A stretch of 64,000 nucleotides of DNA. It comes from an uncultured Pseudanabaenaceae cyanobacterium. GTDB taxonomy: Bacteria > Cyanobacteriota > Cyanobacteriia > Pseudanabaenales > Pseudanabaenaceae. The stretch covers positions 1 through 64,000 of the forward strand of contig CALGKB010000003.1 in the NCBI GenBank assembly GCA_937927915.1, in the 5' to 3' direction. The position numbers and the translations under genes were made by a program. Within the stretch, counting starts at the first letter, position 1; each line of letters starts with the position of its first letter. Shown piece after piece: positions 39,368-60,055 of the stretch. Below the pieces are notes generated by a model, which was not told where the DNA came from, searched no databases, and saw only the letters and a list, made by a program, of their open reading frames with translations.

Positions 39368-39964
39368 ATGCATACCCCCTCTCTCCACTGGCAACGTTTG
39401 TCCCAGATCACTCCCTGTCTTGCCTGGCTCAGTCCTGGGGAGTTGGTCCCCTCTCACCACCGTTTCTACCGCAGTCGCACCTTTCTCCGACAGATTCTGG
39501 GGCAGTACCTCCATTTACCCCCCGCTGCCGTTCCCCTCACCACAAACCCTAGTGGCAAACCTGTTCTAGTTAATTTCCCCCTCCACTTCAACCTCGCCCA
39601 CAGTGGAGATTGGCTAGTAGTGGCAGTTAGCGATCGTTCTCCTGTGGGAGTTGACCTGGAAAAAATCAGACCCCGCCCCTACCAGCAGTTGATCGATCGC
39701 TATTTCTCTAGCAGGGAAGGACAGTGGTTCAGCCATCAGGCAGCCGAGGAGCTATTTTATCGGGCATGGGTAGCTAAGGAAGCCTACGCTAAGCTGCTGG
39801 AACTCCCCCTTTTGCCGTCCTTACGCCAGTTAGAAACCATCCCCCTCCTAACAGAGAGAAAAATGACAGTCGTTCAGCCAGGTCCACAAGGCGGGGAAAT
39901 AACGATCGAAGTGATCGACTCTCCCCCAGGCTACGCTGCTGCCCTAGCCTACCGAACCCTCTAA
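39368..39964 (+). CDS. 4'-phosphopantetheinyl transferase, Sfp/HetI type
   Basis: About 198 residues from ATG 39368. Sfp-type transferases attach the phosphopantetheine arm of CoA to acyl or peptidyl carrier proteins. Signature: [25 protein letters not shown] (Mg-binding Asp/Glu) and [14 protein letters not shown] (W-x-x-K-E-A-x-x-K). Cyanobacteria usually have one Sfp-type enzyme serving fatty-acid, polyketide and other carriers. A start at 39305 would overlap the divergent ycf51 start codon; a TATAGT box near 39329 argues for the shorter form. Its 3' end overlaps that of sufB by 21 bases. Confidence 0.88.
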
Positions 39965-42295
39965 TTTCAGTGCCAGGAGTTTATCTGCCTCCACCGCAAA
40001 TTCCATCGGCAGAGCGTTGAATACCTCCCGACAGAAGCCGCTGATCATCATGGAGACCGCCTGTTCAGGGTCAATGCCCCGCTGTTGGAAGTAGAAGAGC
40101 TGCTCCTCCCCAATCTTGGACACACTGGCTTCATGTTCCACTTTGGCAGTGGGATTTTTTACCTCGATATAGGGGAAAGTATTTGCCTGGGAGTTATCCC
40201 CGATGAGCATAGAGTCACACTGGGCAAAACTGCGGGCTCCATCCGCCTTGGGACCCACTTTCACCAAACCCCGATAGCTATTGCGGGAATGCCCCGCCGA
40301 AATCCCCTTGGAGATAATCTTGCTACGGGTGTTGCGCCCAATGTGGATCATCTTTGTCCCCGTGTCCGCCTGCTGGTAGTTATTGGTCAGGGCGACGGAG
40401 TAAAATTCACCCACTGAGTTATCCCCCACTAACACACAACTGGGGTACTTCCAGGTAATAGCTGATCCCGTTTCCACCTGCGTCCAGGAAATCTTGGAAT
40501 TAACTCCCTGGCACAACCCCCGCTTCGTTACAAAATTGTAGATACCACCCTTACCATTGGCATCTCCTGCGTACCAATTCTGCACAGTGGAATATTTAAT
40601 TTCGGCGTTATCTAATGCCACCAATTCCACCACGGCAGCGTGCAATTGATTAGTATCAAACATGGGAGCTGTACAGTTGTGGACAGCAAATCCCCGTACT
40701 AGGTAGCTGTGGGTTTCCGCTACATCAATATTGAAGACCAAGTCATCCCAAGGCTCACGGGTAATCTCCCGAATGGGTACTAGGAAATGTGTGTCAGTTT
40801 CCTGTATGACATCCCACTTCTTATTGGGAGTGTAGCCTACTTGATACAGAGGTTGCCGCTGCATAATCCGATCGCTCTGGTGGGCAAATTTGCCTGCTCC
40901 CTCTGGACGAGTTTGTATCCAACTGTAGATGCCTAGACGATTCAATAACATCTGAGTAGTACAGTAACGCACCATTGTTGAACCCTGCCGTTGGCAGATA
41001 TTCCCATCTCCCACCAGATAGGCATCCAACAGAATGCAATCCGGTTGCTCAGTTAAATACACAGGACGACCAGTAATTGACCTGACTAATTCCCTAGTCC
41101 CCTCTGCTAAATCTCCCTCATGTAAGCCAAAGAAAAATTGATTGGTGTGTTGCTTGTTCAAGTGGTTGTAATAGGTACTATCCTCTGCCCAGTAGTAGCC
41201 GAGATTGCTAAATACCTGATTCTCCCTTGCCCGCAGTTTAGGTACTAGCAGAAAATCTCCCTTTTCTAGCTCCTCTGCCTTCACCCATTGGGGTTGAGCT
41301 TGTTTCAATTTCTCTGTATCTACTTCAGGTAGCCAACCATTGCGGGTCGATCGTTTTTGCAATACATCCCGTCCCTTGATGACCAAGACAGGATGCTCAG
41401 TAGTTAAGCGGAAAGCATTATAGCTGGAGACAGGACAGACTGTCAGCATATCCCCTTTATAATGGCGCACCATCACTGCCCGCACTTTCTGGGGATTACC
41501 CTCGTGGTCATAGACCTGGTCTCCTGGCTTGAGACTCTCAATGTTGACCCAACCATCGGGAGTAGAAACTTGCTCCCCTGCAGGATGGCATCCCTCTAGG
41601 TAACTCACATAGCTTCCCTCCTCCGCAATGATGAGGGTACGTTCAAATTGCCCCGACTCCCCATTGTTAATGCGGAAATAGGTGGAAAGTTCCATTGGAC
41701 AGCGCACACCCTTGGGAATGTACACAAATGATCCATCACTAAATACGGCAGAATTGAGGGCGGCATAGTAGTTATCGCCGATCGGTACAACGCTGCCCAA
41801 ATATTTCTTTACCAACTCCGGATATTCCCGCAGCGCCTCCGAGATAGAGCAGAAAATCACGCCCACCTTTGCCAAATCCTTCTTAAATGTGGTAGCGATG
41901 GAAACACTGTCAAAAATAGCATCCACTGCCACATTAGCCAAACGCTTCTGCTCGGAGAGAGGAATACCCAACTTCTCAAAGGTTTCTAACAGCTCGGGGT
42001 CAACTTCTTCTAAGCTCTTTTTCTTCTGACTAGATTTGGGCGCAGAATAGTAGATGATGTCCTGGTAATCAATAGGGGGATAATGCACCTCTGCCCAAGT
42101 AGGGGGAGTCATCTTTAGCCACTGCCGATAAGCCCGCAGGCGAAACTCCAGCATGAATTCAGGCTCCTGCTTCTTGGCAGAAATCAGACGAATAATCTCC
42201 TCATTCAAACCCTTGGGGATCACATCCGCTTCGATGGGGGTGACGAAGCCGTACTTGTACGGTTGATTTACTAGTGCTTGGACAGTCGCAGTCAT
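39944..42295 (-). CDS. sufB: SufB with in-frame intein (Fe-S cluster scaffold)
   Basis: From ATG 42295 the precursor has 783 residues; removal of a 305-residue intein leaves 478, the normal SufB length. SufB with SufC and SufD builds [4Fe-4S] clusters. N-terminal extein starts [20 protein letters not shown]; it has [21 protein letters not shown] and [17 protein letters not shown]-type blocks; the C-extein resumes with [19 protein letters not shown] and ends with the family's [15 protein letters not shown]...GFCREVF. The intein splits the protein between Gly235 and the conserved Cys of CTAP. Unusually, sufC, sufD and sufS do not follow: the next gene is convergent. Divergent from sufR, with the SufR operator between. 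Confidence 0.96.
40676..41590 (-). other. SufB intein with degenerate homing-endonuclease region
   Basis: 305 residues, from Cys1 ([14 protein letters not shown]) to the His-Asn terminus (VRGFAVHN) followed by Cys+1. Splicing block A, block B with TTEHPVLV (T-x-x-H), block [15 protein letters not shown] and block G are all intact, so protein splicing should work. Between B and F lie about 200 residues, too long for a mini-intein (~140) and too short for a full bifunctional one (~400+). A single LAGLIDADG-like stretch, [12 protein letters not shown], is coded near 40997-41035; the second motif is not found, so the endonuclease is probably inactive. Confidence 0.93.
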
Positions 42296-42358
42296 GAACG
42301 CCTCTCTGGGGAACTTAAACAATATTTTGGTTTCTTAAGTCATTATAGAGTACTATAA

Positions 42359-43054: not shown

Positions 43055-43127
<73 letters not shown>

Positions 43128-43167: not shown

Positions 43168-43354
43168 TCTCTACTGAATTTCTTTACTCCTGAATGTTAG
43201 ATTAGACAGAGATATTGTCTAGCGCTGAGACTACTAGCCAAGTAGGGGCAAGTACCAATCTAAGAAGTGCAAAATCCCGACTGATGAGGAAAAAGGTACA
43301 CAAGAAAAAAACAGCCTGGGTAAATGTGATAGGTTTGCTTGCCACCTATGGTCC

Positions 43355-43382
43355 GGATCACCCCCACGTGTGTGGGGACAAC
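43355..43382 (-). CRISPR. Single leftover type I-E CRISPR repeat
   Basis: A 28-nt element whose core CCCCAC-GTGT-GTGGGG forms a 6-bp stem with a 4-base loop, flanked by GGATCA and ACAAC; in the reverse orientation it begins GTTGTCCCC and ends GGTGATCC, the form of I-E repeats. It lies 19 bases beyond the cas2e stop. I searched the surrounding bases to tRNA-Phe by eye and found no second copy and no spacer, so the array has collapsed to one repeat. Confidence 0.7.
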
Positions 43383-43401
43383 ACTTCCAAAATAGTTGAT
43401 T

Positions 43402-43677
43402 TTAGGCAATTTTGACAAGCAGGACACCCTCTATGTCTACTAAGAGACGAGAGGGATCACCGATAGTGCGGGCAGTAAACCCCTGTTCAGTGTTGGTGGA
43501 GAAAATCATAACAGCAGAGCCTTCTTGCTGCAGTTTTTTAGTTACCAGCTGCCACAGTTCCTCCCGCACTAGAGCAGAAACTTTACCGACAAATACGCCT
43601 GCTTTGACCTCAAACAACCAGCGACTCAGCTCACCTCTTAAACTGGGCTGGGCACGTTCCACCACAAAAACTACCAT
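43402..43677 (-). CDS. cas2: CRISPR-associated endonuclease Cas2e (type I-E)
   Basis: A 91-residue intact open frame of the CRISPR-associated Cas2e family, the structural partner of Cas1 in the spacer-integration complex. Diagnostic stretches: MVVFVVERAQPSLRGELSRWL, EVKAGVFVGKVSALVREELW, and IFSTNTEQGFTARTIGDPSR. The ATG follows a GGAGG site located at the 3' end of cas1. With cas1 broken and no array left, the protein has no evident job in adaptation here. Confidence 0.92.
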   Translation of the reverse strand: MVVFVVERAQPSLRGELSRWLFEVKAGVFVGKVSALVREELWQLVTKKLQQEGSAVMIFSTNTEQGFTARTIGDPSRLLVDIEGVLLVKIA

Positions 43678-44556
43678 CTATACCTCCTCTTCACCCCAGG
43701 CTTGACCACCTTCTACTGCTCCCTGTTCTGGGTCCCATAACTGACCAACAGCGGGAGAGGTTTCATCTATTTTCCCTACCTGCAAAATTTCGTCTACATC
43801 TGGCACAATGCGTGACATGAGTTTAATTTCATTGAATTTTTCCCGACATTTGCGCCTAACAGCTTTTTCATCCAAGCCAAATTCAGCAACGGCTGCAAAG
43901 GCAGCAGGAATGGTAGTTTCAGTTTTGTAGAGGTCAGCTATATCATATACAAAGGATAATGGCTTGCCAGTGTGAATAAATCCCAGGGCAGAAGAGTAGC
44001 TCACACTGTTCAAAGCAGCTTGGCAAACGGCGTAAAGGCAGCTATTGGCAACAGAGATAGCACGGTTAATGGGATTGGCTTTTTCCCACTGACCGAGTTT
44101 GTAGTCTCTGCCTTGCTAAGGCGGCTGTAGGCAGTGCGTACCCTTACTCCTTCTAGCCCCCGAATTTGTTCTAGGCTCAAGCCTTCCTTGAGTGGTTCTT
44201 GCAAGCGAAATTCATACATTCTGCGCACCACCTGTAGATGGGTTGCTGGATTTGCCCACACTTGCGCTTGGTGATAAAGTCTAGCCACACTACTAGAGCT
44301 ACTCACACCTCTAGCATAGAAACGGAGACTGTCTTCCCCTACCCACTGCACAGCACAGGCATTATCAGCCAAGGCTTTGATGGCGGCATGGGTAATTGTG
44401 CTAAAGCGTGTTAAGGCTAGCGCAGGGAATCACATACTTGGCATCTTCCTGATAAACAGCGATCACTTTAGCATCTTGTTCAATACGACAGCGATCGAAA
44501 TAAGCAAAACTCAAGCTATCCCTTACTTTAGGTAATCGCCGCAATGATTCTTTCAT
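43678..44556 (-). pseudogene. cas1: cas1e, broken by two frameshifting deletions
   Basis: Three reading frames in series make up one Cas1e. Frame A starts at ATG 44556 after AGGAGG (LRRLPKVRDSLSFAYFDRC...IPCASL) and hits TAG at 44403. Frame B resumes as TITHAAIKALADNACAVQWVGEDSLRFYARG and ends near YSRLSKA. Frame C resumes near 44105-44118 with RDYKLGQWEKANPINRAISV and runs through ALGFIHTGKPLSFVYDIADLYK to the stop at 43678. At both joints a few expected residues (the LLLGPGT-type segment and the loop before RDYK) are missing, so small deletions rather than single-base slips broke the gene. The integrase cannot be made as one chain. Confidence 0.9.
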
Positions 44557-44567
44557 TTAATCCTCCT

Positions 44568-45189
44568 CTAGGTTAATTTGGCAATTGATAACAAGCCACA
44601 GCCGTAGGCGCGTCCACGCCCGATCCCTTCACACAAAGCTTTGATAAAAAGTTCACGGTTAGTAATTTCTAGCACTCCCTGCATCAGCACACAGGCAATG
44701 CGGATTGGGTCTTTTTGGTTAGGTTTGCGCCCGTAGATTTTGGTATTAGGAATCCAATCAACGGTATGTACTGCGAAGCCATGTTTTACAGCTTGGCGTG
44801 CTAACCATTGCTGCTGCTCCTCCATCCGCCACAATTCCACAGTTTTGTGAGATTTTTTGTCCCTTTTACTGGGATTAGCTTTGAGGCGGAACTGCAGAAG
44901 TTGTCCTACTGTCAGAGCATCTAACATTTTCTGCATCTGGATAGTTGGGGGGCAGTTTCTGCCAATCAGGGGCAATTCCTGACTGCACCAGAATAGTCAT
45001 ACTATCGGGTCCGTGGCGAAACAAAATCTGCCACTGGGATCGGGCTGTACTGTTACTGTTTGGGCTGTAGTTTTCTTGGTTGGGGAATGCCTCCATAATG
45101 CGCTGATGTAACTTGTAGGCGTTGCCAATTTCAGCGTAGATTTTGGGGAAATGGGGATTGAGTTCTAGTTTGGAAAGATACATAGCCAT
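44568..45189 (-). pseudogene. cas6: cas6e (cse3/casE), frameshifted
   Basis: Cas6e cuts pre-crRNA and stays on the crRNA 3' hairpin in Cascade. The N-terminal half (MYLSKLELNPHFP...YKLHQRIMEAFP, ILVQSGIAPDW) is read from 45189 or 45183; the C-terminal half (ALTVGQLLQFRLKANPSKR ... GIGRGRAYGCGLLSIAKL, the Gly-rich family tail) is in another frame. Removing one base from the run of four A on the coding strand (44927-44930) restores a continuous protein, so one inserted base is the simplest cause. A sequencing error in the homopolymer is possible, but the neighbouring genes show independent damage. Confidence 0.88.
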
Positions 45190-46036
45190 TTACTAAACAG
45201 GGAGAAGTTAAATTGTGACTAAGATCAATTGTTGTCTGCTGTAATGGTCTTGGAGTTAATCCATTGAATAGGTTTGCAAAGCTGAGTGTTCCTGATTTTT
45301 TTATAGGTTTCTGCCAGCCCATTCCATAGAGAGCTTGCCTAACTTTGTCAGGTAAGTTTTTCACATATTCTGACAATGGTAAATCGTTGGCGTAAGGGAA
45401 ATAGTTAGTATTGGAAGCAATCCAGTCAGCTACTGTAGACAACCCTGCCAAAATTATAGCGGCTGCATTACTGCACTCCTGGGGTAAATCCCTGGACTGC
45501 AAGCCTGTATAGTCCTGTAATTGGATAAAAACTTCCTTCCTAAAATTATTCCATATTGGATCGTCCCCCATCCCCTCAGAATCTAGTTCCTGTATCTCTT
45601 TGCTAGTAGGGAAAAAACCATGGTGTCCACCAGTAATTTTGGCAAAGTGTTGCGCTAATCTCATGCCCATTCCTAGCTCTTGCAAAAACTCTGGTAAGGT
45701 TTTCGCAGTGACGGTACCATGCGGTACTTTCTGTACCTGACGAAACCTCTCGTAAATCTCTCCGAGTACTATTTCTTTTCCTAGCTCTGGCAGTTGCAAC
45801 TGAAAGGAAGGACAAACCTTTCCTAAGTCATGGCTACCTGCCAAAAAACTACACCACCGCATCAGAGCGTCTCTTTCCAGCTTCAATCCCTCTGACAAGC
45901 GCTCAACTACTGCCTCACTCAAATAGTCTTTTACTATCTGCTTAGCCACTTCTGCAGTATCAACCAGATGATGAATCAAGGGATGATAATTTAATACCCC
46001 TGCTTGCCCAGCCTTTGCCCAGAATTTTAGCCCCAT
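45190..46036 (-). pseudogene. cas3: cas3 N-terminal HD-nuclease remnant
   Basis: Encodes only the HD domain of a type I-E Cas3. ATG 46036 is followed by LKFWAKAGQAGVLNYHPLIHHLVDTAEVA; HD-motif pieces SHDLGK and GGHHGFFP are intact, and the linker reaches PRPLQQTTIDLSHNLTSPCLV, the position just before the Walker A motif of the helicase. There the sequence jumps, at about 45190, into the bases immediately upstream of cas6e, and the frame runs on as nonsense to 45131. The helicase and the genes normally between cas3 and cas6e (cas8e, cas11, cas7, cas5) are gone, by one deletion. Confidence 0.9.
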
Positions 46037-46040
46037 ACCA

Positions 46041-46250
46041 CTACTCCCAATAGTGACCATACATACTTTTAATCTCAGGCTTGATTGTTTCTACTAACTC
46101 AGTTTTACAATATCCTAATACCCACCGCTTTGCATCATTCATGCCTCTTACAGTCATTTTTAGCCTTACCCCTCCATCTGCCAGTTCCTCTAAAACTTGG
46201 GTTGGATGCCATCTTCTTTCTATAATGTATGGAGCTAGAAGTGTTGAATG
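46041..46250 (-). pseudogene. C-terminal fragment of a WYL-domain regulator
   Basis: A 69-codon stop-bounded frame on the reverse strand, ending TAG four bases before the cas3 ATG. It reads APYIIERRWHPTQVL, LADGGVRLKMTVRG and AKRWVLGYCKTELVETIKPE, the C-terminal extension of WYL-domain transcription regulators, a type often found at the head of I-E cas operons. The N-terminal HTH and WYL core are missing; upstream lies the transposase relic, which probably disrupted the gene. Confidence 0.75.
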
Positions 46251-46324
46251 TCAGGAAAGAGGTAGAAAAAAAGGAGCCAGAAATGGTATCCTAGCTCTGA
46301 TAAATAGCAAACAAACTTGAGTTT

Positions 46325-46935
46325 ATGTTAAAACAACTGCGGCAACTTATCAAGCCCTTGCTAAAACTTCTACCCCAAAATGATTATCCTGTTTTGCATT
46401 CTCAACTCTTTGTCCTCCTCTGGATACACTTCATTTTAGATGCAAGAGTCTTTACAATGAGGGGCTTATTCTTTCTCTTAAATCATCTCAGCTTTAAGGT
46501 GGATATATCTACCTTTTCTAAAGCCTGTAAGCATCGTAGTACTGCACCATTTCAACGCATTTTAAGAGAGTTGCAACAGCACCTGAAAAGACAAAACTAC
46601 GGAGAGCTTAAGCATTTATTTCCTCTGGATTCTACTATCATATTTGGCAACAGCAAGTATACCAAGTAAAACTATCCCTTTGCTTTGATATAAATGTAGG
46701 TAACATTGGTGATGAGATAATTACTGTTGGGCAAACTAATGACCACAAAATTGGTAAGCTTGTCATCGGAATGATACCGGAAGATGCCCTTGGCATAATG
46801 GATAGAGGTTTTGCTTCTTGGAAATTAATCGATGAAATGTGCGACAGAAATACATTGTTTATTGTACGGATTAGAAATAACATGAAACTCAATCCAAACA
46901 GTCCTAATGCACGGGTGGTTCAAATTTTTTTAATG
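46325..46935 (+). pseudogene. IS4-type transposase relic
   Basis: Two frames together give part of a DDE transposase of the IS4 group. Frame 1 (ATG 46325): RQLIKPLLKLLPQ, FVLLWIHFILDARVFTMRG, and HLFPLDSTII with the first catalytic Asp. Frame 2 (from about 46645): QQVYQVKLSLCFDINVGN, TNDHKIGKL and MIPEDALGIMDRGFASWKL with the second catalytic Asp in MDRGFASW. A deletion with frameshift joins them, and the C-terminal third with the catalytic Glu is missing; the homology ends where the CRISPR-like repeat at 46936 begins. I could not identify terminal inverted repeats or target-site duplications. Confidence 0.82.
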
Positions 46936-46975
46936 GTTTCCAATCGATCGCGTTCCCCAGCGAGTGGGGAGAGAC
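46936..46975 (-). CRISPR. Solitary CRISPR-repeat-like element of a second class
   Basis: On the reverse strand the 40 bases start GTCTCTCCCC, form a CCCCA/TGGGG stem around CTCGC, and end with ATTGGAAAC, the 3' handle style of the 35-37-nt repeats of cyanobacterial type III and I-D arrays and unlike the I-E repeat at 43355. Only one copy is present and no cas gene of that type is in the window. It abuts the truncated end of the transposase. Identification is by form only. Confidence 0.45.
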
Positions 46976-47158: not shown

Positions 47159-48829
47159 GTGCCTGCTGAGATTGTCGAAGCAGAGCCTGTCGAGGTCAGA
47201 CAGTGGACAACTCCCTATCAGCGTCCTATATTGACTCAGGGGCAAAAATGGGTAGAAAAGGTGCAAAACCGATCGTTATTAAATATTGCTGGCATTGTGG
47301 GCATTGCCACACTCCTAAGTAAAGTGATGGGCTTAGTGCGCCAAGTGGCGATTGCCTGGGCATTTGGGGTAGGAGAAGCAGTGGATGCTTACAACTATGC
47401 CTACGTCATTCCTGGCTTTTTGTTAATTTTGTTGGGGGGTATTAACGGACCCTTTCACAGTGCCATTGTCAGTGTCATTGCCCGTCGTCCCCAGTCAGAA
47501 GCTGCTGTAATTATTGAGACTGTAAACACGATCGTGGGTTGCTTTCTCATCTTTCTAACTATATTGTTGATTATTTTTGCCGAGCCAATTACCGACCTGT
47601 GGCAGGGCTTAAATACCAGTGACGTGGGCTTGACGACAAAAGCGATCGCGGTGGAACAACTGCGCATTATGGCACCGATGGCATTGCTAGCGGGTTTGAT
47701 TGGCATTGGCTTTGGTGCCCTCAACGCTAACCAGCAGTATTGGCTCCCTTCCATTAGTCCCATCTTTTCCAGTGTGGCAGTAATTGTGGCAGTGGGTATC
47801 TTTGCCCTGGGCGATCGCTCCGATGTCTGGCAGGGGGGGCGCTTACTGGCATGGGGTACGCTAGCGGGGGCAATTCTACAGTGGTTGGTCCAAATACCAG
47901 CCCAAATCCGATCGGGATTGGGGGGACTACGGCTGCGGTGGCAAGTGCATCATCCCGGCGTGCAGGAAATTTTAAGCATCTTGCTCCCTGCTACCCTCTC
48001 CTCTGGCTTGCTCTACATCAATGTCAATGTCGATCTCTTTTTTGCTGCCTACATTCCCCAAGCAGCAGCAGCCCTGGGCTATGCCCAACTACTAGTGCAA
48101 ACCCCCCTGGGACTGACGTCCAACATGATTTTGGTGCCCCTCATGCCCCTCCTCTCCCGCTTAGCCACCCCAGAACACCTGCAGGAGCTGAAAGAACGCA
48201 TCCGCCAGGGATTGATTATTACAGCCTTGACCATGTTGCCCCTCAGTGCCCTCCTCATTGCCCTAGCAAACCCTATCGTGTCCCTCATCTACCAACGGGG
48301 CAAATTTACGGGAGCAGCCGCCGAATTTGTGGCAGCAGTCCTTGTGGGCTATGGCGTAGGAATGTTTGTCTACCTGGGGCGGGACGTCCTGGTACGCGTA
48401 TTCTATGCCCTGGGGGATGGCACAACTCCCTTCCGTCTGAGTGTATTGGGGGTAGGTCTCAATGCCCTCTTCGACTGGCTATGGGTGGGGCAACTGGGAG
48501 CACCCGGCTTAGCAGTGGCAACAGCATCAGTAAATTTAATTTCCGTGATCCTGCTATTGCTGGTCCTGACCCAGAAATTAGGGGGATTACCCCTGGGCAA
48601 CTGGTTTGCCCCCATTGGTATAATTGGGTTAATAAGTGGCATCGGCGGACTAGTGAGCTGGAGCATTCACCACTACTTACCCCCTGTCGCCAACTTTTGG
48701 TGGCAGTGTGGCAGCCTGGGTTTAGCGGGGGGAGCCGGACTACTCACGATCGGAGTCCTTCTGTTGCCCCTGCGGTTGCCAGAGGTGGAGCTACTGCTCA
48801 GCCAAGTGCGGCGGCGGTTAAAAATCTAG
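47159..48829 (+). CDS. murJ: Lipid II flippase MurJ
   Basis: A 556-residue member of the MOP/MviN family that moves lipid II across the membrane for peptidoglycan growth. Fourteen hydrophobic segments; landmarks are [37 protein letters not shown] and [14 protein letters not shown], close to MurJ's usual R-x-x-A-I-A-x-x-F-G and N-G-x-F-x-x-A sites. The start is uncertain: the GTG at 47159 gives a 30-residue polar N-terminus before the first helix; no strong ribosome-binding site is visible. The 3' end overlaps rbcR by 12 bases. Confidence 0.93.
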
Positions 48830-49780
48830 TTGATCTGTCAGTTGTAGGTTTGCCACACTTTCATCGCGGAACATAGGCAGAATATGCTGGCAGAAAGCCT
48901 CCGTTGCCTTGGAGCGATAGCGCTGGGGATTCATAATTTGCACCAACAAGCGGCGAATCACCATTCCCTCGATCGGTACCCTTGCTAGCACCCCCAACTC
49001 CAACTCCTTTTCCAGAGCCGTAAGAGGCAAGAATGCCGCTCCCAAACCCGCCTGGACAGCACTCTTAATCGCCTCGATCGAATTTAGCTCCATCGTCACC
49101 GGCAATTGGCGGGGCACCACGCCATTTTTCGTCAGCACCTGGTCAATCACCTTCCTGGTCGTGGACTGGGCATCCAAGACAATAAACTGCAGGTTATACA
49201 ACTCCTCCCGCGCGATGCACTCCCGCTGTGCCATAGCATGATCTTTCGGCACCACCAAAACAAACTCATCAAGGGCATAGGGGACAATCTCCAGGGCGTG
49301 GCGTAACTCTGGCGGAATCTCCCCCCCCACAATTGCCAAATCCACCTGCCCATTCATCACACTCCAAGCCGTGCGCCGCGTGGAATGCACGTGTAAATGT
49401 ACTTGCACATCTGGATAATGTTGGCGGAACTGCCCGATCAGGCGGGGCATAAGATAGGTACCAGTTGTTTGGCTTGCCCCAATCACCAGCGTCCCCCCGT
49501 GCAAATTCTGCAAATCCTCGATGGCACGGCAGGTTTCCTGGCAGAGATTCAAAATCCGTTCGCCGTAGTCAATCAATAACTTACCCGCCTCGGTCAACTG
49601 CGCCCTGCGCCCGCCACGGTCAAAAAGTGGTACATTGAGTTGGCGTTCCAGATGTTGCACCTGCAAACTCACCGCCGGCTGTGACACAAACAGACTGTCC
49701 GCTGCCCGCTTAAAGCTACCTTCTACAGCGATCGCCTTCAAAATCCGCAGTTGGTCAAGGGTAAAAGGAATGTCAGTCAT
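48818..49780 (-). CDS. rbcR: LysR-type regulator RbcR (Rubisco operon regulator)
   Basis: A 320-residue LysR-family regulator from ATG 49780. The HTH region [37 protein letters not shown] (read in pieces) and the effector-domain motifs [44 protein letters not shown] and [21 protein letters not shown] are close to the RbcR/Ycf30 branch, which activates rbcLXS and related carbon genes, rather than NdhR or CmpR. The start codon shares the palindrome CATG with the start of the divergent gene at 49779, so their control regions interlock. Confidence 0.88.
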
Positions 49781-50090
49781 GGACTCTAACCAAACGATCG
49801 AAAAACTCATTACTGGGGGTATTTTGGTGATGGCTAGGCGATGCCCACCCCGCAGTTGCGGTAGATTTCAGCAGCTTAGCCCCCCCCAAAGGGAGAAACT
49901 GGGACAAAAGTGTATAGAGTTTGCTAGCCCTCTATCCCACTACGATACCCTGGAATTTCACTATGGGGATCAAAATCTCATTCTATACAAAATTCCTGTC
50001 CACCTCCTAGTGCTTACCTACAATAGCCCCAAACTCTCCCCCCAGATACTAGAAACTCTCCTGCCTACACTACAAAATTTCCTCACCTGA
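49779..50090 (+). CDS. Hypothetical protein divergent from rbcR, 103 residues
   Basis: ATG 49779 follows AAGGA at 49765-49769 by nine bases; the longer in-frame reading upstream lies inside rbcR and is its shadow. The product ([22 protein letters not shown] ... LQNFLT) contains [17 protein letters not shown] and [22 protein letters not shown] do not recognise a family. Its start codon overlaps the rbcR start on the other strand. No membrane helix; two to three Cys without a clear motif. Confidence 0.65.
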
Positions 50091-50126
50091 TTATGCTATA
50101 TTTAGCCCAGGCACCATGATCAGGGC

Positions 50127-50558
50127 ATGGCAGACACTTTTATCAAGATGCAGATTTCGATCCCCCCCATCGAAGGGGTAGAGGATATTCCCGTTGCGGC
50201 AGTGGAAGCCCTGGCTGCCAAGATGGGGTTTAGCCCCGATCGGGTACAAGACATCGCCCAAGCCCTGACGGAAGCCTGTGTCAACGCCATTATTTACAGC
50301 GATTCCGATGCGGATGTAGAAATTGTGATCCTGGCGTGCCAAAATAGTCTAATATTAGAGGTTAGGGACAAAGGTCCTGGCTTTGAGCCGGATGCCGTGC
50401 CCCCTCCCAATTTTGAGCTGATTTCAGAAATGGGAGTAAAAAATGGCGGTTTCGGTATCCATATGATCAAAGCACTAGTTGACAAACTAGAGATCGAGTC
50501 CTCTAATAAGGGCACAGTAGTCCGCATGAGTACCTTCTTGTCCAAGGCAGATAACTAA
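50127..50558 (+). CDS. Anti-sigma factor / serine kinase, RsbW type
   Basis: A 143-residue GHKL-fold protein. The N-box helix reads DIAQALTEACVNAIIYSDSDAD, the G1 box RDKGPGFEPD and the G2 region NGGFGIHMIKALVDKLE, as in RsbW/SpoIIAB-type kinases that hold a sigma factor and phosphorylate their STAS antagonist. The following STAS gene starts two bases after its stop, making a partner-switching pair. Which sigma factor or other output is bound is not visible. Confidence 0.9.
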   Translation: MADTFIKMQISIPPIEGVEDIPVAAVEALAAKMGFSPDRVQDIAQALTEACVNAIIYSDSDADVEIVILACQNSLILEVRDKGPGFEPDAVPPPNFELISEMGVKNGGFGIHMIKALVDKLEIESSNKGTVVRMSTFLSKADN

Positions 50559-50559
50559 C

Positions 50560-50910
50560 ATGACTCATTCCTCTTTTCTCCAAGACGAGTTAAAAATTTC
50601 CTCCAAGGAAGAAGACAACAAAGTTACCCTCAAATTAGAGGGTGCGCTCAGTGCTACCACGGTGCCCTACTTTCGCCAAACGGTGCAGCCCTACCTCGAT
50701 CGTCCTGTGGCGGAGATTATCTTGGACTTTGCAGGGGTCACTAAAGTTGTTAGTCGGGGCGTGGGGGCAGCCATCGATGTGGCGGTACAGATTAAAAAGA
50801 TTGGCGGCAGGATGCGGGTGGAAAACATTGGCAAGTTTAGTCGCTCCCTCTATATCCAGGGGGTCCACCTCGTAGCGGATGTGCCTGAACTAGAGGGATT
50901 TGAGCCGTAG
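50560..50910 (+). CDS. STAS-domain anti-sigma-factor antagonist
   Basis: A 116-residue STAS protein. VTLKLEGALSATTVPYFRQTV and AEIILDFAGVTKVVSRGVGAAIDVAVQIK mark the domain. The usual phosphorylation loop D-S-S-G reads V-S-R-G, so a Ser remains at the expected site but the preceding Asp is replaced. Unphosphorylated antagonist would bind the RsbW-type kinase encoded just upstream and free its target. Confidence 0.88.
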   Translation: MTHSSFLQDELKISSKEEDNKVTLKLEGALSATTVPYFRQTVQPYLDRPVAEIILDFAGVTKVVSRGVGAAIDVAVQIKKIGGRMRVENIGKFSRSLYIQGVHLVADVPELEGFEP

Positions 50911-50920
50911 GGGAATGCCC

Positions 50921-51682
50921 CTACTCTTTTTGGTGGGAAAACTGGTAAGCTCCTAACCAACCGAGGATAACAGATAGCCCCAAAAGCACTACAAAGGTAT
51001 GCCAGGGGGGGACACCCCCTTCTAAAACAGCACGTAAACCTATACTGGCGTGGGTGAGGGGTAAAAGGTAAACGATCGGTTTCAGGACAGCAGGCAGCTG
51101 GGCAGGTTCAAAAAATGTCCCCCCTAAAAAAGACATGGGCACAATCAAGAAATTGTTGTAAAGACCTACTGCCTCCAGAGAACGCACCCGCAGTCCCACA
51201 ATCACCCCCAAACCCGCAAACACCATAGAGTTGGCAAACACCACCAACAAAAACAGGGGATGGAGGAAATACCAATTCCCCGACACCAACAGTCCCACGA
51301 TCGCCAGGGTAAAGGCAGTAATTCCTCCCCGGGTCACCCCCGCCAGCATTTTGCCTAGGTAGAGGGAGAGAGGATGGACAGGGGCTATTAACAATTCTTC
51401 AAAAGTCTTACTGTAAAGCCGATCGCCGCAGACGGAAAAAGTAGTTCCCCCAAAGCTGATGGTCATGGAGGAGAGGGCAACCATCCCCGGCAGGATGAAG
51501 AAGAGGTAATTCCCCCCGCTAACTTTGATGTCGATCGTGTTACCTAAACCAAAACCAAAGGCAATGATGTAAATCATGGGGGAGATCAGCCCTGAGGCAA
51601 TTACCTGGGGTAACCGCACCCGTAAATCCAGCCAATCTCCCCACCAAACGGTCAAACTGTCCTGCAGGATGTAACTAAGCAT
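50921..51682 (-). CDS. ABC-2 type transporter permease
   Basis: A 253-residue permease with six membrane helices of the ABC-2/NodJ family: LISPMIYIIAFGFGLG, PGMVALSSMTISFGGT, SKTFEELLIAPVHPLSLYLGKML, and LGGTFFEPAQLP with LLPLTHASIGLRAVL. Such permeases export polysaccharides, lipids or drugs with a separate ATPase; no ATPase gene is adjacent, so it is an orphan half-transporter here. Start overlaps the stop of the preceding small gene. Confidence 0.88.
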   Translation of the reverse strand: MLSYILQDSLTVWWGDWLDLRVRLPQVIASGLISPMIYIIAFGFGLGNTIDIKVSGGNYLFFILPGMVALSSMTISFGGTTFSVCGDRLYSKTFEELLIAPVHPLSLYLGKMLAGVTRGGITAFTLAIVGLLVSGNWYFLHPLFLLVVFANSMVFAGLGVIVGLRVRSLEAVGLYNNFLIVPMSFLGGTFFEPAQLPAVLKPIVYLLPLTHASIGLRAVLEGGVPPWHTFVVLLGLSVILGWLGAYQFSHQKE

Positions 51683-51867
51683 TAACTTCGGGAAGCTAAG
51701 CGCTCAAACTCTGCCTGGGCTGATTGTAACATTTGTTGGCGGCTGTCTTGACAATTGCGGATGGTGAGAGAGGGGACAAGGTTGCGGGCTTGGAGAGCCA
51801 TATGCAGCTGCAGGTTAGCCACATAATCACTGAGAGCTTCTTTCTGGGTTAGGTGCATATCACTCAT
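51682..51867 (-). CDS. Small helical protein upstream of ABC permease, 61 residues
   Basis: Starts at ATG 51867 and its stop overlaps the permease start by one base (TAATG-type junction), which supports it as a real gene. The product (LTQKEALSDYVANLQLHMALQ... ASRS) is a soluble amphipathic helical protein with one Cys. Family not recognised. Confidence 0.6.
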   Translation of the reverse strand: MSDMHLTQKEALSDYVANLQLHMALQARNLVPSLTIRNCQDSRQQMLQSAQAEFERLASRS

Positions 51868-51940
51868 CTATCCTAGGTTGTAAAAATAAGTATAAAGCAC
51901 CTACATCCATAACTCAGATAAATGCAATAAACCTTTACAA

Positions 51941-51955
51941 GGGGGAAGACCCCCC
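51941..51955 (-). terminator. Hairpin after amt
   Basis: GGGGG-AAGA-CCCCC lies six bases past the amt stop on the reverse strand. The stem is strong, but the following bases are only weakly T-rich, so termination efficiency is uncertain. Confidence 0.4.
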
Positions 51956-51960
51956 AGTGA

Positions 51961-53436
51961 TTACTCGATCGTTTCTAGGGCAAAGCCGCTGTAAGCTTCC
52001 ATGCCGTGTTCCCCTACATCTAAGCCTTTTAATTCCTCTTCTTTTTCCACCCTGAGGCCCCCTGTGACAGCGGCAATCGCTAACCAAGCAACAAAACTAA
52101 AGATAGTGGTGAATGCTCCCACCGTGAGGATACCGACGATTTGGGGAATGAGGGCATCCAGGCCGCCCCCTAGGAGAAAGCCCCGCGCTGGTCCAGTTCC
52201 TGCCTGTAGGATAAAGTCATTGCCAATATCAGCCTTTGGTCCTACTGCAAACAGACCGACTGCTAGGGTACCCCAGATACCGCAGACCAAGTGAACGGAG
52301 GTAGCACCAACGGGGTCATCAATTTTAATTCTGTCAAAGAAGCCGACGGCGAATACAACCAAGATGCCCGCAATAATACCAATCAGCGCCGCCGCAGGCA
52401 AAGTGACATAGGCGCAGGGAGCAGTAATTGCCACCAGTCCTGCCAAAATACCGTTAATAATCATGGACAAGTCGGGCTTGCGTAACGCTAGCCATGCCGT
52501 CACCGTAGCGGCTAAACCCCCTGTGGCTGCTGCCAGGTTGGTAGTTAGAGCAATGTGAGCAATCAAGCGCCCATCCAGTGCCATAGTAGAGCCAGGATTA
52601 AAGCCAAACCAGCCCAACCACAGAATTAGACAGCCCAAGGTGGCGGAAGTCATGTTGTGCCCAGGGAATGCCCGCACACTGCCATCTTCCCCGTAGCGCC
52701 CTAGGCGGGGTCCCAGTAAACCAGCGCCCACCAAGGCTGCCCAGCCTCCAACGGAGTGCACAACCGTAGAACCAGCAAAGTCCCAAAAGCCAATCCCTGC
52801 TAACCAGCCACCGCCCCATACCCAGTGACCGGTAATGGCATAGGAAATCGCCACTAACAAAAAGCTGAAAAGCAAAAATGCCACAAATTTAATCCGCTCT
52901 GCTACTGCCCCAGAAACGATCGTGGCAGCTGTTCCCGCAAACGCCAATTGGAACAGAAACTTTGCCTGCAGAGGTACCCCTGTCCAGTTGAGGGCACTGA
53001 ATACTCCCTTATAGGCATTCCCTTGAGCGGGGCTATTGTCTTGCCCTGTCAAAAAGAAACCCTGGAGACCAATAAAGGCGTTGCCATCGCCAAACATAAA
53101 AGCAAAACCTACCATCCAAAAGGCAACGGTGGCAATAGCAAAGACAATGAGGTTTTTCGCCAAAATATTGACGGCATTCTTGCGCCGACAAAAACCCGAT
53201 TCTACCAAGCCAAAGCCCGCATTCATAAAAAACACAAGGAAGGCAGCTACTACTACCCACAGGGTATCTAAGCCAACCTTGAGGTCTGCCATCATCTGTT
53301 CGGGAGTAGGGCTATCCTGGGCACCAGCGGCATAGACCCAAAACACTCCAATCAAAGCGGCAAAGGGTAAACATACCCGCCAATTGACCTTGCTGCGTTG
53401 CAGCTTGCGCCTACTAAACGATCGTGCTGATAACAC
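51961..53436 (-). CDS. amt: Ammonium transporter Amt
   Basis: A 491-residue Amt/Rh-family channel. A signal-like N-terminus (about 20-42) is followed by eleven helices; landmarks are [23 protein letters not shown], the substrate-gate and twin-His region [17 protein letters not shown] and [19 protein letters not shown], and the C-terminal tail [20 protein letters not shown], the helix blocked by the PII protein GlnK/GlnB. The start is GTG 53436 with AAGAGG eight bases before; no ATG fits. An NtcA-type box lies about 60 bases upstream. Confidence 0.94.
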
Positions 53437-53494
53437 CTCTAAACCTCTTGAACCTAATTATGCTCTATCTCAACAAACCCAGGGGCAGGAATTT

Positions 53495-53508
53495 GTATTG
53501 GATGTTAC
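53495..53508. promoter_or_regulatory. NtcA-type box upstream of amt
   Basis: An exact GTA-N8-TAC, the consensus of the cyanobacterial nitrogen regulator NtcA, lies between the divergent amt and ppc genes. For amt, a CATAAT -10-like hexamer (reverse strand 53457-53462) stands 32 bases further on, about ten more than the classic NtcA spacing. The site is symmetrical and could act on ppc as well. Confidence 0.65.
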
Positions 53509-53582
53509 AGGTGTTAAGAAAGTCTTAAGTCATTTCGTTAAATCTGTCACATTAGTAACCGTCGGACCTAGTATATTGATCA

Positions 53583-56414
53583 ATGCTGTCTGCTCTGTCC
53601 ACTATGATTTCTGTCGCACCCCACCTGCTTACTGCCAATGACAATGGGACTTTTGTGCGTTCCCCCCGCCTGCACCAGCGCCTGCACTTAATTGAGGAGT
53701 TGCTAGATGAGGTCTTGGCAGAGACCTGTGGGCAGGAGATTGTCGGTTTGCTGCAGCAGCTGCGCCACCACTACGCCCAGTACCCCTCGGCAACGATCGT
53801 GGAAAACCTGGACCTGGAGAGGGCTATTATGGCAACACGGGCTTTTGCTCTCTACTTCCAGTTGATCAATATCATCGAACAACAAAATGAGCAAGAGGAA
53901 GCCCTCGATGCTACAGAACATCACCCCATCGGCACCTTTGCTTGGTTGTTTCCGGAGCTAAAGCGTCAGAATGTGCCCTTTGCCCATATTCAAAGATTGC
54001 TAAAACGGCTGGATATAAAACTGGTCTTTACTGCCCACCCGACGGAAATTGTGCGCCAAACAATTAGAGAAAGACAGCGCCGCATTGCCTGTTTGTTGCA
54101 TCAATTTGAGATTGCCCCTGTAACTGAGCGGTCTGTGCTGCTCAACCAAATTCGAGAGGAGATCAAGCTGTGGTGGTACACGGATGAGTTAAACCAGGAC
54201 AAACCAACGGTTTTAGATGAGGCGGAGTACACACTACACTACTTTGAGGAGGTGCTCTTTGATGCCATTCCTGTTTTGTATGAGAAGTTGGTGCGGGCAA
54301 TCAAGCAGACTTTTCCCACGTTGGAACCTCCTGCCCCCAGTTTTTGTACCTTTGGCTCTTGGGTTGGTTCCGATCGGGATGGCAACCCAGCGGTGACACC
54401 GGCGGTAACTTGGCAAACTGCCTGCTACCAAAGGGAATTGGTATTGCATAAATACATCAAATCGGTTAAGCAGCTGATACAAAGACTGTCTCTTTCCCAG
54501 AGTGTGGCGGATTTTGCCGATGAATTGACCCATAGCCTCAGCCAAGACCAAGTCATTTTCCCTAAAGTGTATGAACGGCTGTCGGTGCGCTATCGCCGTG
54601 AACCCCTGCGCATGAAGCTGTCCTATACTTTAGCGAGGCTAGAAAATACCCTGGCATTTACGACTAAGCTCAAACATACGCCCTGGCAGACGGTAGACCC
54701 CGCCCCTGCCCAGGAAAGGGACCGCTATGACAACGCCGATCAGTTTTTGGCGGAATTACATCTGATTAGGGATACACTGGCAAAGTTGAATATCACCTGT
54801 CAAGACTTAGAGCGTCTGATTATTCAGGTGGAGGTCTATCGTTTCCATCTTGCCCATTTGGATATTCGCCAGGAGAGCAGCAAACACGAACAGGCGATCA
54901 CAGAGATTGCCGAAAGATTGCGTCTTTTACCTGTCCCCTATGACACCCTCACGGAGGCAGAAAAACAGGCGTGGTTACTAAAAGAGTTGAGCAGTCTAAG
55001 ACCGATCGTGTCCAGTCGGCTGCGGTTTTCCGAGGCTACAGAGAATATCTTGCAGACTTTCCAGGTGGTGCAAAAATTGCAGACGGTCTTTTCCCACCAC
55101 ATTTGCCACACTTACATTATCAGCATGAATCACACTGTCAGTGATGTGTTAGAGGTTTTATTGCTGGCCAAGGAGGCGGGCTTGTATGACCCGGATACGG
55201 GGGAGAGTAGTCTGTGCATTGTACCTTTATTTGAAACAGTGGAAGACTTGCGAGTAGCACCCCAGGTGTTGGAAGCCCTGTTATCCATTCCCCTCTATCG
55301 CCAACTGTTGATGAGTCAGTCCAACCTGCAGGAAGTGATGTTGGGCTATTCCGATAGCAATAAGGATTCGGGCTTTTTAAGCAGTAATTGGGCAATTTAC
55401 AAGGCGCAGCAGGCTCTTAATCAGGTAGCAAGGCAGTTTGGCGTGGAGTTGCGTATCTTTCACGGACGGGGCGGCTCGGTGGGGCGGGGGGGTGGTCCTA
55501 CCTATGAGGCAATCCTGGCGCAGCCTGCCTACAGTGTGGATGGGCGCATCAAGATTACGGAGCAGGGAGAGGTCTTAGCTTCTAAGTACAATTTGCCTAA
55601 CCTAGCTCTCTACAATTTGGAAAAGGTGGCAACGGCGGTGATTCAGGCGGGTCTGCTGCCCAACAGCTTAGATACCCTGGAGTGCTGGCGGGATATTATT
55701 GAGGACTTGGCAAACCGATCGCGGCAGGTCTATCGCGCTCTGATCTATGACAACCCCCATTTTGGGGAATTTTTCCATCAGGTAACGCCAATTGAGGAAA
55801 TTAGCCAGTTGCAGATCAGTTCTCGTCCGGCACGGCGGGCGGGCAAGAAGGATTTGGGGAGTTTACGGGCAATTCCCTGGGTGTTTGGCTGGACGCAGAG
55901 TCGCTTTTTACTGCCGGCTTGGTTTGGGCTGGGTACGGCATTTAGTGAATTTTTGGCGGCAAATCCGGAGCATTTGAATTTAGCGCAGTTTCTCTACCAG
56001 AAGTGGGCATTTTTTAAGATGATTATTTCCAAGGTGGAGATGACGCTGGCAAAAACTGACCTGCAGATGGCGGCGCAGTATGTCAATGAGCTAACCCGCC
56101 CTGATTTCCGCGAGCATTCCCAGTTCTTCTTTGACCAAATTGTGGCAGAATATAACCGCACCTGTGATGTGGTGCTAAAAATTACTAATCACAAACGTCT
56201 GTTGGACGGGGACAAGGAGTTACAACGATCGGTGGCTTTGCGCAATTATTCCATCGTGCCCTTGGGGTTTATTCAAGTATCCCTACTCAAACGTCTACGC
56301 CAGTTCAATCAGCAGCGCGTTGATCTGCGCTCCCCCTATTCTAAGAACGAACTACTGCGGGGTGCTCTCCTGACCGTCAATGGCATCGCGGCAGGCATGC
56401 GTAACACAGGTTAA
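53583..56414 (+). CDS. ppc: Phosphoenolpyruvate carboxylase
   Basis: PEPC fixes bicarbonate onto PEP to make oxaloacetate, feeding aspartate, glutamate and other anaplerotic needs. The 943-residue protein has the catalytic His in [13 protein letters not shown], the [12 protein letters not shown] block, the [14 protein letters not shown] loop, [13 protein letters not shown] and the C-terminal allosteric end [41 protein letters not shown] box at 53572-53577 is so close to ATG 53583 that the in-frame ATG 53604, seven residues on, may be the true start. Divergent from amt across the NtcA box, a sensible pairing of carbon skeletons with nitrogen uptake. Confidence 0.96.
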
Positions 56415-56472
56415 AGAAAATTTGTTGTATGGGCATTGCCGATCGTGATTAAATTTATCTTAGCGCTGAACT

Positions 56473-56895
56473 ATGCCTGTGATCACTGTCAATCTCTTGC
56501 ACCCGTCGAATTTATCTGTAGTGCAAAGTTGGAGTTTCCCGTCGGAGTCGGTTGTCCGCATTGGGCGGTCCGCCGATAACGAAGTGGTGCTGTATAGTTC
56601 CGTTGTGTCGCGCTACCATTTGGAATTACATTACGTCAACAATCAATGGGAGTTGCATAACAAGGGGGCAAATGGCACGTTCTGGGAGGAAAAGCCCATC
56701 AGCAAGCAGAAGGTAGTTGATGGTATGGTCATTCGCTTGGCTTCTTCGGGACCCAAGTTACAGTTGTGCCTCGATGACCGCCCGCCCCTGCCGACACCCA
56801 AATCAGCGAAAACCAAACCCCAACGCGGTTTTACCGATGATACGACCCAAACGATCGGGGAAGACATTCAGAAACTAACGGGCAATGACTCCTAG
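56473..56895 (+). CDS. FHA-domain protein
   Basis: A 140-residue protein; residues about 20-95 are a forkhead-associated domain with VVRIGRSADNEVVL, SVVSRYHLELHY and NKGANGTFWE, which keep the Gly-Arg, Ser-x-x-His and Asn-Gly residues that bind phosphothreonine. A basic, Pro-rich tail follows, ending in a Thr-rich segment (FTDDTTQTIGED) that could itself be phosphorylated. A Ser/Thr kinase gene lies two genes downstream, so it may read that kinase's signal. Confidence 0.88.
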   Translation: MPVITVNLLHPSNLSVVQSWSFPSESVVRIGRSADNEVVLYSSVVSRYHLELHYVNNQWELHNKGANGTFWEEKPISKQKVVDGMVIRLASSGPKLQLCLDDRPPLPTPKSAKTKPQRGFTDDTTQTIGEDIQKLTGNDS

Positions 56896-56900
56896 TAGTT

Positions 56901-57449
56901 ATGACCCTCTCACCGCGCCTGCTCAAGACAATTCGAGCCTTTCGCTTCTACGGTTTGGTAGGGCTATGGACCCATGGGGTGCCGGGGGTAATTGCGGGGG
57001 TGTTGTTACTGTTTGCGGGCATCAGGGGCAATGAGGGCACTGCCAGCAATCCGGGGACTCTGCCGGGGGTAGCAGCGGCGTGGATTGCCTGGGCGTTAGT
57101 GGTGGCGGGGTTTGTTTGGAGTTATATTTATATTCGCTGGGCAAAGCAGTTGGCGGATATTCAGCGCCCCACCAAGGCACAGACTTTAATCCAACTAAAA
57201 ATCGGGCTGGGCATCAGTCTAGGGGGACAGTTTACGGCTCTATTGGCAGCCTTTGCTATTGTCGGCACCCTGGCGCAGCGGGCTTTATTCCGTACCCAGG
57301 GGTTGATTGTCGATGACCCTAGCCGCTTTGTGGAACCCATCGATTTATTTGTGGTGCAAGCTAGTCTATTGATCCTTCTTGCCCATTTTTTGGGTACTCT
57401 AATTTCCCTATGGTTACTCGATCGAGTAACGCGTCCCGCTGAGACTTAG
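56901..57449 (+). CDS. DUF3611-like membrane protein
   Basis: A 182-residue protein with four membrane helices. The segments LLLFAGIRG, RPTKAQTLIQLKIGLGISLGGQF, IVGTLAQRALF and LFVVQASLLILLAHFLGTLISLWLL follow the DUF3611 pattern of cyanobacteria and plant plastids. Function unknown. It begins five bases after the FHA gene, so the two are co-transcribed. Confidence 0.75.
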   Translation: MTLSPRLLKTIRAFRFYGLVGLWTHGVPGVIAGVLLLFAGIRGNEGTASNPGTLPGVAAAWIAWALVVAGFVWSYIYIRWAKQLADIQRPTKAQTLIQLKIGLGISLGGQFTALLAAFAIVGTLAQRALFRTQGLIVDDPSRFVEPIDLFVVQASLLILLAHFLGTLISLWLLDRVTRPAET

Positions 57450-57509
57450 AAAGCACCAATTTTGGGAAGCAGATGAGCTATGCTGTAACTATGGGGAACA
57501 CTGGTACCA

Positions 57510-58922
57510 ATGAGCTACTGTTTTAATCCTGCCTGCCCACAACCCGTCAACCCCAACAAGGTGACCCACTGTCAAGCCTGCGGTAGTCCGTTACTTCTGC
57601 GCAATCGTTACGTGGCGGTTAAGATGCTAGGGAAGGGGGGTTTTGGGCGCACTTTTCTGGCGGTGGATATAGATATGCCCTCGCGGCTGAAGGTGGTGAT
57701 CAAGCAATTTTTGCCTGGTAAACTCCCCCCGGAAATGCTGCAGAAAAGTTTGGAAATGTTTCAGCGGGAGGCGGTACTGTTGGAGAAACTGGGCAAGCAT
57801 CCCCAAATTCCCACCCTCTATGCCTACTTTACGATTCGCAACCAGTATTACCTGGTGATGGAATTCATCGACGGCAAAGACCTCCTCAAGGAGTTGGAAG
57901 TAGAGGGTCCGTTTAATCAGGAAAAAGCGATCGATTTTCTGCGGGGCTTACTGCCTGTAATTGACTTTTTACACCAACACAACGTCATTCACCGCGACAT
58001 CAAGCCCGCCAACATTATTCGCAACAGCAAGGGGGAATTGGTGCTGGTGGATTTTGGGGCAGCCAAGGAGATCAACCGTTTGGCAGAGGCAGCGGCAGCC
58101 CCCGGCACGATGATCGGCAGTATGGAGTATGTGCCCCCCGAACAGGTAGTGGGAAATGCCGTACCCGCTAGTGACCTTTACAGTCTGGGGGCGACCTGTG
58201 TCCATTTAATCACGGGCAAAAAGCCTTCCCTAGTCAGAGACTTGCTCACTGACACCTGGCCCTGGCGCAAACACTTGCCCCCTGGGGTGGAGATACCCGA
58301 CTTCCTGGGGAATGTCCTGGATAAATTGCTGCAGGGAGCGGTCCTCGATCGGTACAAATCCGGCAGTGAGGCGCTCAAGGACTTGGAAATTGGCTTACTG
58401 CGGGAGCAGTCCAAGAGCATGATCAGTCTCTACCCGTCACGGCTGGACTATGCCCAGCTGGAGTATTTTTTATCGGTTGGGGATTTGAAAGCGGCGGACA
58501 TGGAGACGTGGAATTTGCTCTGTCGTGCCCTTGGTCGACCGGCGGGGAGTAAGTTGGCAGAACGGGATATAGCGCGCATTCCCTGCAATGAACTGCTCAA
58601 CCTGGATATATTGTGGCTCCGCTATAGCAACAATCGCTTTGGTTTCAGTGTCAAGTGCGACATTTACGAAGCAGAGGGGCAAAATTATCGTAGCTTTTGT
58701 GAAAAGATTGGCTATCGTGTGAAGCGGGCGGGGTCAATGGCGTGGATCAACGGTAGCCGCATCAACTACAGTCACGAAGCCCCTAGGGGGCATTTACCTT
58801 GGATTCCCGGCTTCTATGAGGCAGACACACCCCTTGGTCAAGAGGGACTGATGCGGCAATTGCTGATGACGGTGCGCAGTTGTCAGCGCAAGCTGTCTCC
58901 CTTTACGGCTGTCACGCGTTGA
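57510..58922 (+). CDS. Zinc-ribbon Ser/Thr kinase fused to a GUN4 domain
   Basis: A 470-residue protein. Residues 1-30 form a four-Cys zinc ribbon (CFNPACPQPV and CQACG). The kinase domain (about 33-290) has GKGGFGRTF, the Lys in VVIKQF, the catalytic HRDIKPANI, DFGAAK and the PPEQ activation-segment end. Residues about 310-440 are a GUN4 domain (LDYAQLEYFLSVGDLKAAD, LDILWLRYSNNRFGFSV, GHLPWIPG). GUN4 proper binds porphyrins and stimulates Mg-chelatase; kinase-GUN4 fusions are signalling proteins whose ligand is not established. The protein seems cytoplasmic with no membrane helix. Its stop shares a base with the next start. Confidence 0.92.
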   Translation: MSYCFNPACPQPVNPNKVTHCQACGSPLLLRNRYVAVKMLGKGGFGRTFLAVDIDMPSRLKVVIKQFLPGKLPPEMLQKSLEMFQREAVLLEKLGKHPQIPTLYAYFTIRNQYYLVMEFIDGKDLLKELEVEGPFNQEKAIDFLRGLLPVIDFLHQHNVIHRDIKPANIIRNSKGELVLVDFGAAKEINRLAEAAAAPGTMIGSMEYVPPEQVVGNAVPASDLYSLGATCVHLITGKKPSLVRDLLTDTWPWRKHLPPGVEIPDFLGNVLDKLLQGAVLDRYKSGSEALKDLEIGLLREQSKSMISLYPSRLDYAQLEYFLSVGDLKAADMETWNLLCRALGRPAGSKLAERDIARIPCNELLNLDILWLRYSNNRFGFSVKCDIYEAEGQNYRSFCEKIGYRVKRAGSMAWINGSRINYSHEAPRGHLPWIPGFYEADTPLGQEGLMRQLLMTVRSCQRKLSPFTAVTR

Positions 58923-59824: not shown

Positions 59825-60055
59825 TACAAAAGTGAAACCAGTGTTTAACTCTGGCGGGCAGATTTGTTTGGTTGTAAAAAAGTTTGGCTACTTAGCAGTT
59901 TTTCTTTTGTGTTTGTGCTAATTTAGCGTAGTAGATTGAGGCAGAGACCTAGTTCTTCATCTTTTGATCCAGATCACGCGTTGCAAAGAGTAACAATCAC
60001 ATTGTTCTCTGGGGGGAGGGAGTAAGATAGTCTTAGAGTTTTTGGAGGCCAGGTT

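Follow-up and report, generated by a model that had tools for sequence, protein, structure and literature searches.

The leader of type I-E CRISPR arrays in cyanobacteria is probably not a separate non-coding stretch; rather, the upstream element at which Cas1-Cas2 would dock appears to lie inside the last codons of cas2e, with the same DNA encoding both the Cas2e C-terminus and the spacer landing site. This dual-purpose end is preserved in a ruined I-E locus within the window, i.e., the whole analyzed stretch of 64,000 nucleotides from an uncultured Pseudanabaenaceae cyanobacterium, and in intact relatives the signal most likely serves to direct Cas1-Cas2 to the junction of leader and repeat. 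The wreck itself is, with little room for doubt, the remnant of one I-E locus of the layout WYL-cas3-cas8e-cse2-cas7e-cas5e-cas6e-cas1e-cas2e-leader-array that was broken by deletions and an insertion sequence. The novelty lies in the cas2e-embedded leader architecture and not in the wreck; as far as our searches show, this architecture is apparently undescribed, as no description of a leader overlapping cas2 was found in the titles and abstracts of the open-licence literature.

The cas2e gene of the window (43402..43677, minus strand) encodes an intact protein of 91 aa that matches PF09707 (1.1e-31) and TIGR01873 (4.8e-25), as the first-pass annotation had proposed; what had gone unseen is the conserved leader signal that overlaps its coding end. 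This signal spans 58 nt (43383..43440, minus strand) and is recognized by frozen synonymous sites and constant spacing. Its downstream part is the leader proper, 19 nt that separate the cas2e stop from the repeat (43383..43401, minus strand) and end in TTTTGGAAGT. The window and the 19 relatives whose junction could be read all have the first repeat 16-23 nt past the cas2e stop, and in all of them the short leader ends in a GGAAGT-like motif. The upstream part contains AGACATAGA at positions -56 to -48, and within it GACATA at -55 to -50. The codons for V-D-I-E-G are separated from the repeat by 58 nt (59 nt in two loci), a spacing that stays constant because the length of the leader and that of the Cas2e C-terminus compensate each other; GACATA thus keeps its distance to the repeat and not to the stop codon.

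Codon alignment revealed frozen third bases in the last codons of cas2e, namely GTA (15/15), GAC (20/20), ATA (18/18), and AAA (15/15), while most of the gene is free to vary. None of 1000 codon resamplings reproduced any of these four freezes; the shared ancestry of the genomes makes these values overstate the number of independent events, although the divergence among the Cas2e proteins reaches a third or more. The isoleucine at the frozen site is always encoded by ATA, which accounts for 6% of the isoleucine codons in these cas genes. Two genomes deviate from the frozen motif, G012 and G472, the latter representing a deep branch. In another case, the genome of G477, the array neighboring cas2e is inverted and the gene does not show the freeze (GAGGATATAGATGG), whereas two I-E arrays located in trans (C1:2059463 and C1:290216) are preceded by non-coding ACATAGACGG...CTTGCCAAAA...TATGGAAGT in the same phase. 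Having lost the freeze in cas2e and carrying the motif as non-coding DNA before its trans arrays, G477 provides a natural control that supports a role of the motif at the DNA level; the trans copies may be derived from the end of a cas2e gene, which would make their independence incomplete.

In the I-E leader of E. coli, an element at -50 to -55 contacts Cas1-Cas2 through IHF bending (PMC10011333), and the conserved GACATA block falls on this same span. Common to both systems are an element at -50 to -55, a recognition site in E. coli and probably also here, and a junction motif adjoining the first repeat. However, the leader of E. coli K-12 is non-coding, extends over ~500 bp before CRISPR-1 and depends on IHF (PMC10011333), whereas in the window the -50 to -55 element is inside the cas2e frame and no convincing IHF site is present. 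A search of the stretch between these motifs for a bend site of the IHF type gave a WATCAANNNNTTR match barely above those in shuffled sequences (16 of 500 shuffles were equally good), which is not convincing.

Alternatively, the freeze could reflect, for instance, a promoter of the array, the binding of a regulator, or an RNA element within the cas2e mRNA. A sigma-70-like sequence, TTGTCA-18-TATTTT (43389..43418, minus strand), overlaps the end of cas2e and, judged by its match to the consensus, is a possible promoter of the array. However, the most frozen block, GACATA, lies upstream of this promoter-like site and is spaced from the repeat rather than from the stop codon, and a similar motif recurs before the G477 trans arrays, which are not accompanied by cas2e. 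Thus, we consider a role other than integration unlikely and favor the docking element embedded in cas2e. If true, this overlap would physically tie an adaptation gene to its own array, would help to explain why cas2e and the array are adjacent and share their orientation, and would bear on the aiming of I-E spacer integration in lineages thought to lack IHF. In our opinion, it is the part worth following, more than the wreck.

The surviving pieces of the locus occupy the minus strand between 43354 and 46235 in the I-E order, that is the C-terminus of a WYL-domain regulator, the HD domain of Cas3, cas6e, cas1e, cas2e, and a single repeat. The pieces and the order given by the first-pass annotation were all borne out: the translated pieces match their families well beyond chance, Cas3, Cas6e, Cas1e, and Cas2e were all recovered in I-E families, and PADLOC gave concordant calls (Cas3e, Cas6e, Cas1e, and Cas2e). 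Intact I-E loci of other cyanobacteria (G376, G326, and more) follow the order WYL-cas3-cas8e-cse2-cas7e-cas5e-cas6e-cas1e-cas2e-array; the operons of G376, G326, and G040 share one order, with WYL at the head in G376 and G326, and therefore the order that survives in the window is the original one. The I-E repeat GTTGTCCCCACACACGTGGGGGTGATCCG (43354..43382, minus strand), of the ~29-nt class and adjoining cas2e, corresponds to the leader-proximal (first) repeat of intact loci by its position and sequence class. It has no spacer array, and a search for its 18-nt core with up to 3 mismatches allowed found a single copy in the genome. The window shares with the intact cyanobacterial systems (G376, G326, G040, and others) the gene order, the WYL head, the repeat class, the short leader, and the overlap of cas5e with cas6e, and differs from them in the absence of the cas3 helicase part, cas8e, cse2, cas7e, and cas5e, in the broken cas6e and cas1e genes, and in the single repeat.

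The first-pass annotation correctly described loss in an I-E locus; however, its account of the lesions in terms of frameshifts was incomplete, as it did not include a deletion of ~6 kb. The 5' part of cas3 (45190..46036, minus strand; PF18019, Cas3_HD, E=1.8e-47) comprises the HD domain and ends right in front of the Walker A region. Cas3 can be aligned up to SPCLV, immediately ahead of the conserved (V)EASMGEGKTE, and the open frame of the gene (45131-46060) continues beyond the deletion junction. Directly after the Cas3 break, in another frame, follow the last six codons of cas5e, LCIFPN, with their stop (45165..45185, minus strand), which were recognized by the reading frame and the C-termini of relatives and which overlap the cas6e start as in relatives. 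The Cas3 helicase, cas8e, cse2, cas7e, and all of cas5e but these six codons are gone from the locus. Since the cas5e tail directly follows the Cas3 break, one deletion presumably took everything from the helicase through nearly all of cas5e; its size of ~6 kb was estimated from the relatives G376 and G040, and the loss could comprise several events. This deletion fusing the Cas3 HD domain to the cas5e tail, and not the frameshifts, is the chief lesion.

The small deletions were sized on a four-way nucleotide alignment of the window with three intact relatives. The cas6e pseudogene (44568..45189, minus strand), whose two halves match Cas6 at 6e-13 and 6e-33 (TIGR01907, 1.3e-22), lacks 20-23 nt near 44936, in agreement with the frameshift reported for it. 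The cas1e pseudogene (43678..44556, minus strand), which matches TIGR03638 in three pieces (8e-7, 2e-27, and 1e-26), had been called doubly frameshifted; it is indeed broken twice, more precisely by a deletion of ~14 nt at 44402/44403, which removed the LGPG motif and created a stop at 44401-44403, and by a deletion of ~22 nt at 44108/44109, which restored the frame. Of Cascade (cas8e, cse2, cas7e, cas5e, and cas6e), the locus thus retains the frameshifted cas6e and the cas5e tail, of Cas3 the HD domain without the helicase, and of the adaptation pair an intact Cas2e next to the twice-broken Cas1e. The view that every effector step is disabled is supported, and both interference and adaptation are dead: interference would be impossible with neither Cascade nor the Cas3 helicase, spacer uptake would be impossible with Cas1e dead, and no crRNA processing would take place.

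As the sequence shows, an IS4-family element cut the WYL gene, the ~6 kb deletion brought the final cas5e codons up to the Cas3 HD domain, small deletions broke cas6e and cas1e, and the array was reduced to its first repeat; this collapse most likely took place by recombination between repeats. The cas2e gene would still be open because the decay is recent and not because the gene is in use, and the undamaged survivor is the proposed docking end, composed of the first repeat and the 58-nt leader signal, the upstream half of which is the cas2e coding end.

Type I-E systems are uncommon among cyanobacteria. They were detected in 4 of 386 genomes drawn from the phylum (window Cas1e as the query, E<=1e-30) and in 24 of 390 genomes drawn from the class (G040 Cas1e as the query, E<=1e-40), with this genome counted in both draws, and a survey of cyanobacteria names I-E as the last of the type I subtypes it found (PMC11903412). 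Decay of I-E loci is ordinary, and similar independent losses are present in two other cyanobacteria. No description of eroded cyanobacterial I-E loci was found in titles and abstracts of the open-licence literature. In G512 (C96), where everything from the WYL C-terminus to the middle of cas6e is lost, a fusion links WYL to the latter part of cas6e, 10 repeats are kept, and cas1-cas2 are open, unlike the broken cas1e of the window; in G437 (C1), the cas3 and WYL frames are broken and a single repeat remains. The breakpoints in both genomes differ from those in the window, and both have an open cas1e.

On phylogenetic trees, the Cas1e and Cas2e proteins of the window cluster with G376/G461 and have branches of ordinary length, whereas its Cas3-HD (1.01) and Cas6e (0.83) branches far exceed those of intact relatives. 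One explanation is that constraint on the effector genes was lost long before that on cas1e-cas2e, the adaptation half being used for a time without interference, as could be suggested by these branch lengths and by G512, which independently kept intact cas1-cas2 after the loss of its effectors. However, 28 of 29 Cas3-HD columns conserved out to other phyla are kept in the window, so that it deviates in 1/29 columns versus 2/29 in G548, a functional but divergent system chosen for comparison; the early relaxation of cas3/cas6e hinted at by the branch lengths is not supported by the deeply conserved columns. The data fit effector genes that represent an older lineage and were combined with a different adaptation module. 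Such shuffling of effector and adaptation modules is apparent in G548 (C75), whose effector genes are 26-40% identical to those of G040 while cas1-cas2 are ~70% identical. An early loss of constraint is thus doubtful, the joining of modules is at least as likely, and the more divergent Cas3-HD and Cas6e may reflect a different ancestry of the effector half. The ordinary branches of cas1e/cas2e and the 28 conserved Cas3-HD columns suggest that the decay is probably recent, although the sequence fixes neither the order nor the age of the lesions.

The genome encodes other CRISPR systems, and the wreck is thus a further record of the death of I-E in genomes that retain them. Contig 5 (G000:C5:112000-122505) harbors a type I-like cas set that looks intact, together with a 16-repeat array; Cas1 sits there within a 572-codon open frame. 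A Cas10 gene on contig 4 (G000:C4:590000-606900) has a run of neighbors resembling genes for type III effector subunits, and no repeat array or Cas1 was found within this 16.9 kb stretch. In principle, the ruined locus could still acquire spacers if the kept cas2e worked with another Cas1 of the genome on the preserved leader and repeat; cas2e, the leader signal, and the repeat are undamaged, and contig 5 supplies a second, intact Cas1 gene. This is very improbable, as cas1e has no LGPG and carries a stop, the array holds no spacer, and the contig 5 Cas1 adjoins an array of its own whose repeat is unrelated. A sequencing or assembly error that hides intact genes is still less credible, for even though the frames were read from an assembly of 13 contigs, the lesions are deletions of 14, 22, 20-23 nt and ~6 kb and an IS junction rather than homopolymer slips, and neither the repeat nor the Cas6e match has a second copy in the genome.

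The suggestion that the locus belongs to an island bounded by tRNA-Phe (43055-43127) and murJ (47159-48829) was not borne out. Positions 1-43128 of the window are colinear with C1:450872-407872 (inverted) of the congener G002, and positions 47222-59825 with C1:493878-506483, so that in place of an empty and contiguous site the two flanks lie 86 kb apart in opposite orientation. Thus, the shared tRNA-Phe/murJ island was ruled out, and the wreck lies at a breakpoint where a rearrangement has interrupted synteny. Neither of the two congeners searched yielded an I-E Cas6e or Cas1e, and megablast detected no plasmid relatives. Two scans of genome contigs gave no cyanobacterial relative; the relatives used here came from the genome draws.

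The WYL fragment (46041..46235, minus strand), detected by tblastx to G376 and G326, is the C-terminus of the regulator whose gene heads intact I-E operons, and it matches the WYL gene adjoining them at 67-76%. The similarity stops at 46235, and an IS4-family copy (46237..46935, plus strand), degenerate and truncated on the right, starts at 46237; its left end is that of the other genomic copies, and it halts early at 46935. On the sequence evidence, this element, which the first-pass annotation overlooked while naming the pieces of the locus correctly, interrupts the WYL gene. The ~1.07 kb IS4-family element is present in the window and in about ten other places of the genome, and the copies that were examined look degenerate.

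Immediately beyond the element, an isolated CRISPR repeat that belongs to another type (CTCCCCACTCGCTGGGGAACGCGATCGATTGGAAAC; 46936..46971, minus strand) was identified, with a second lone copy, 94% identical, at G000:C2:333506-333541; no array is present at either place. These non-I-E repeats end in GATTGGAAAC, which we take to resemble cyanobacterial type III repeats. The repeat of the contig 5 array likewise has one degenerate lone copy, at C9:137583. Copies of the IS4-family element are found beside the contig 5 array, near the contig 9 lone repeat, and by the repeat at 46936-46971. In addition, the sufB frame of the window (39944-42322, minus strand; 792 aa) contains a long insert (... 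RGFAVHNC) with the appearance of an in-frame intein.
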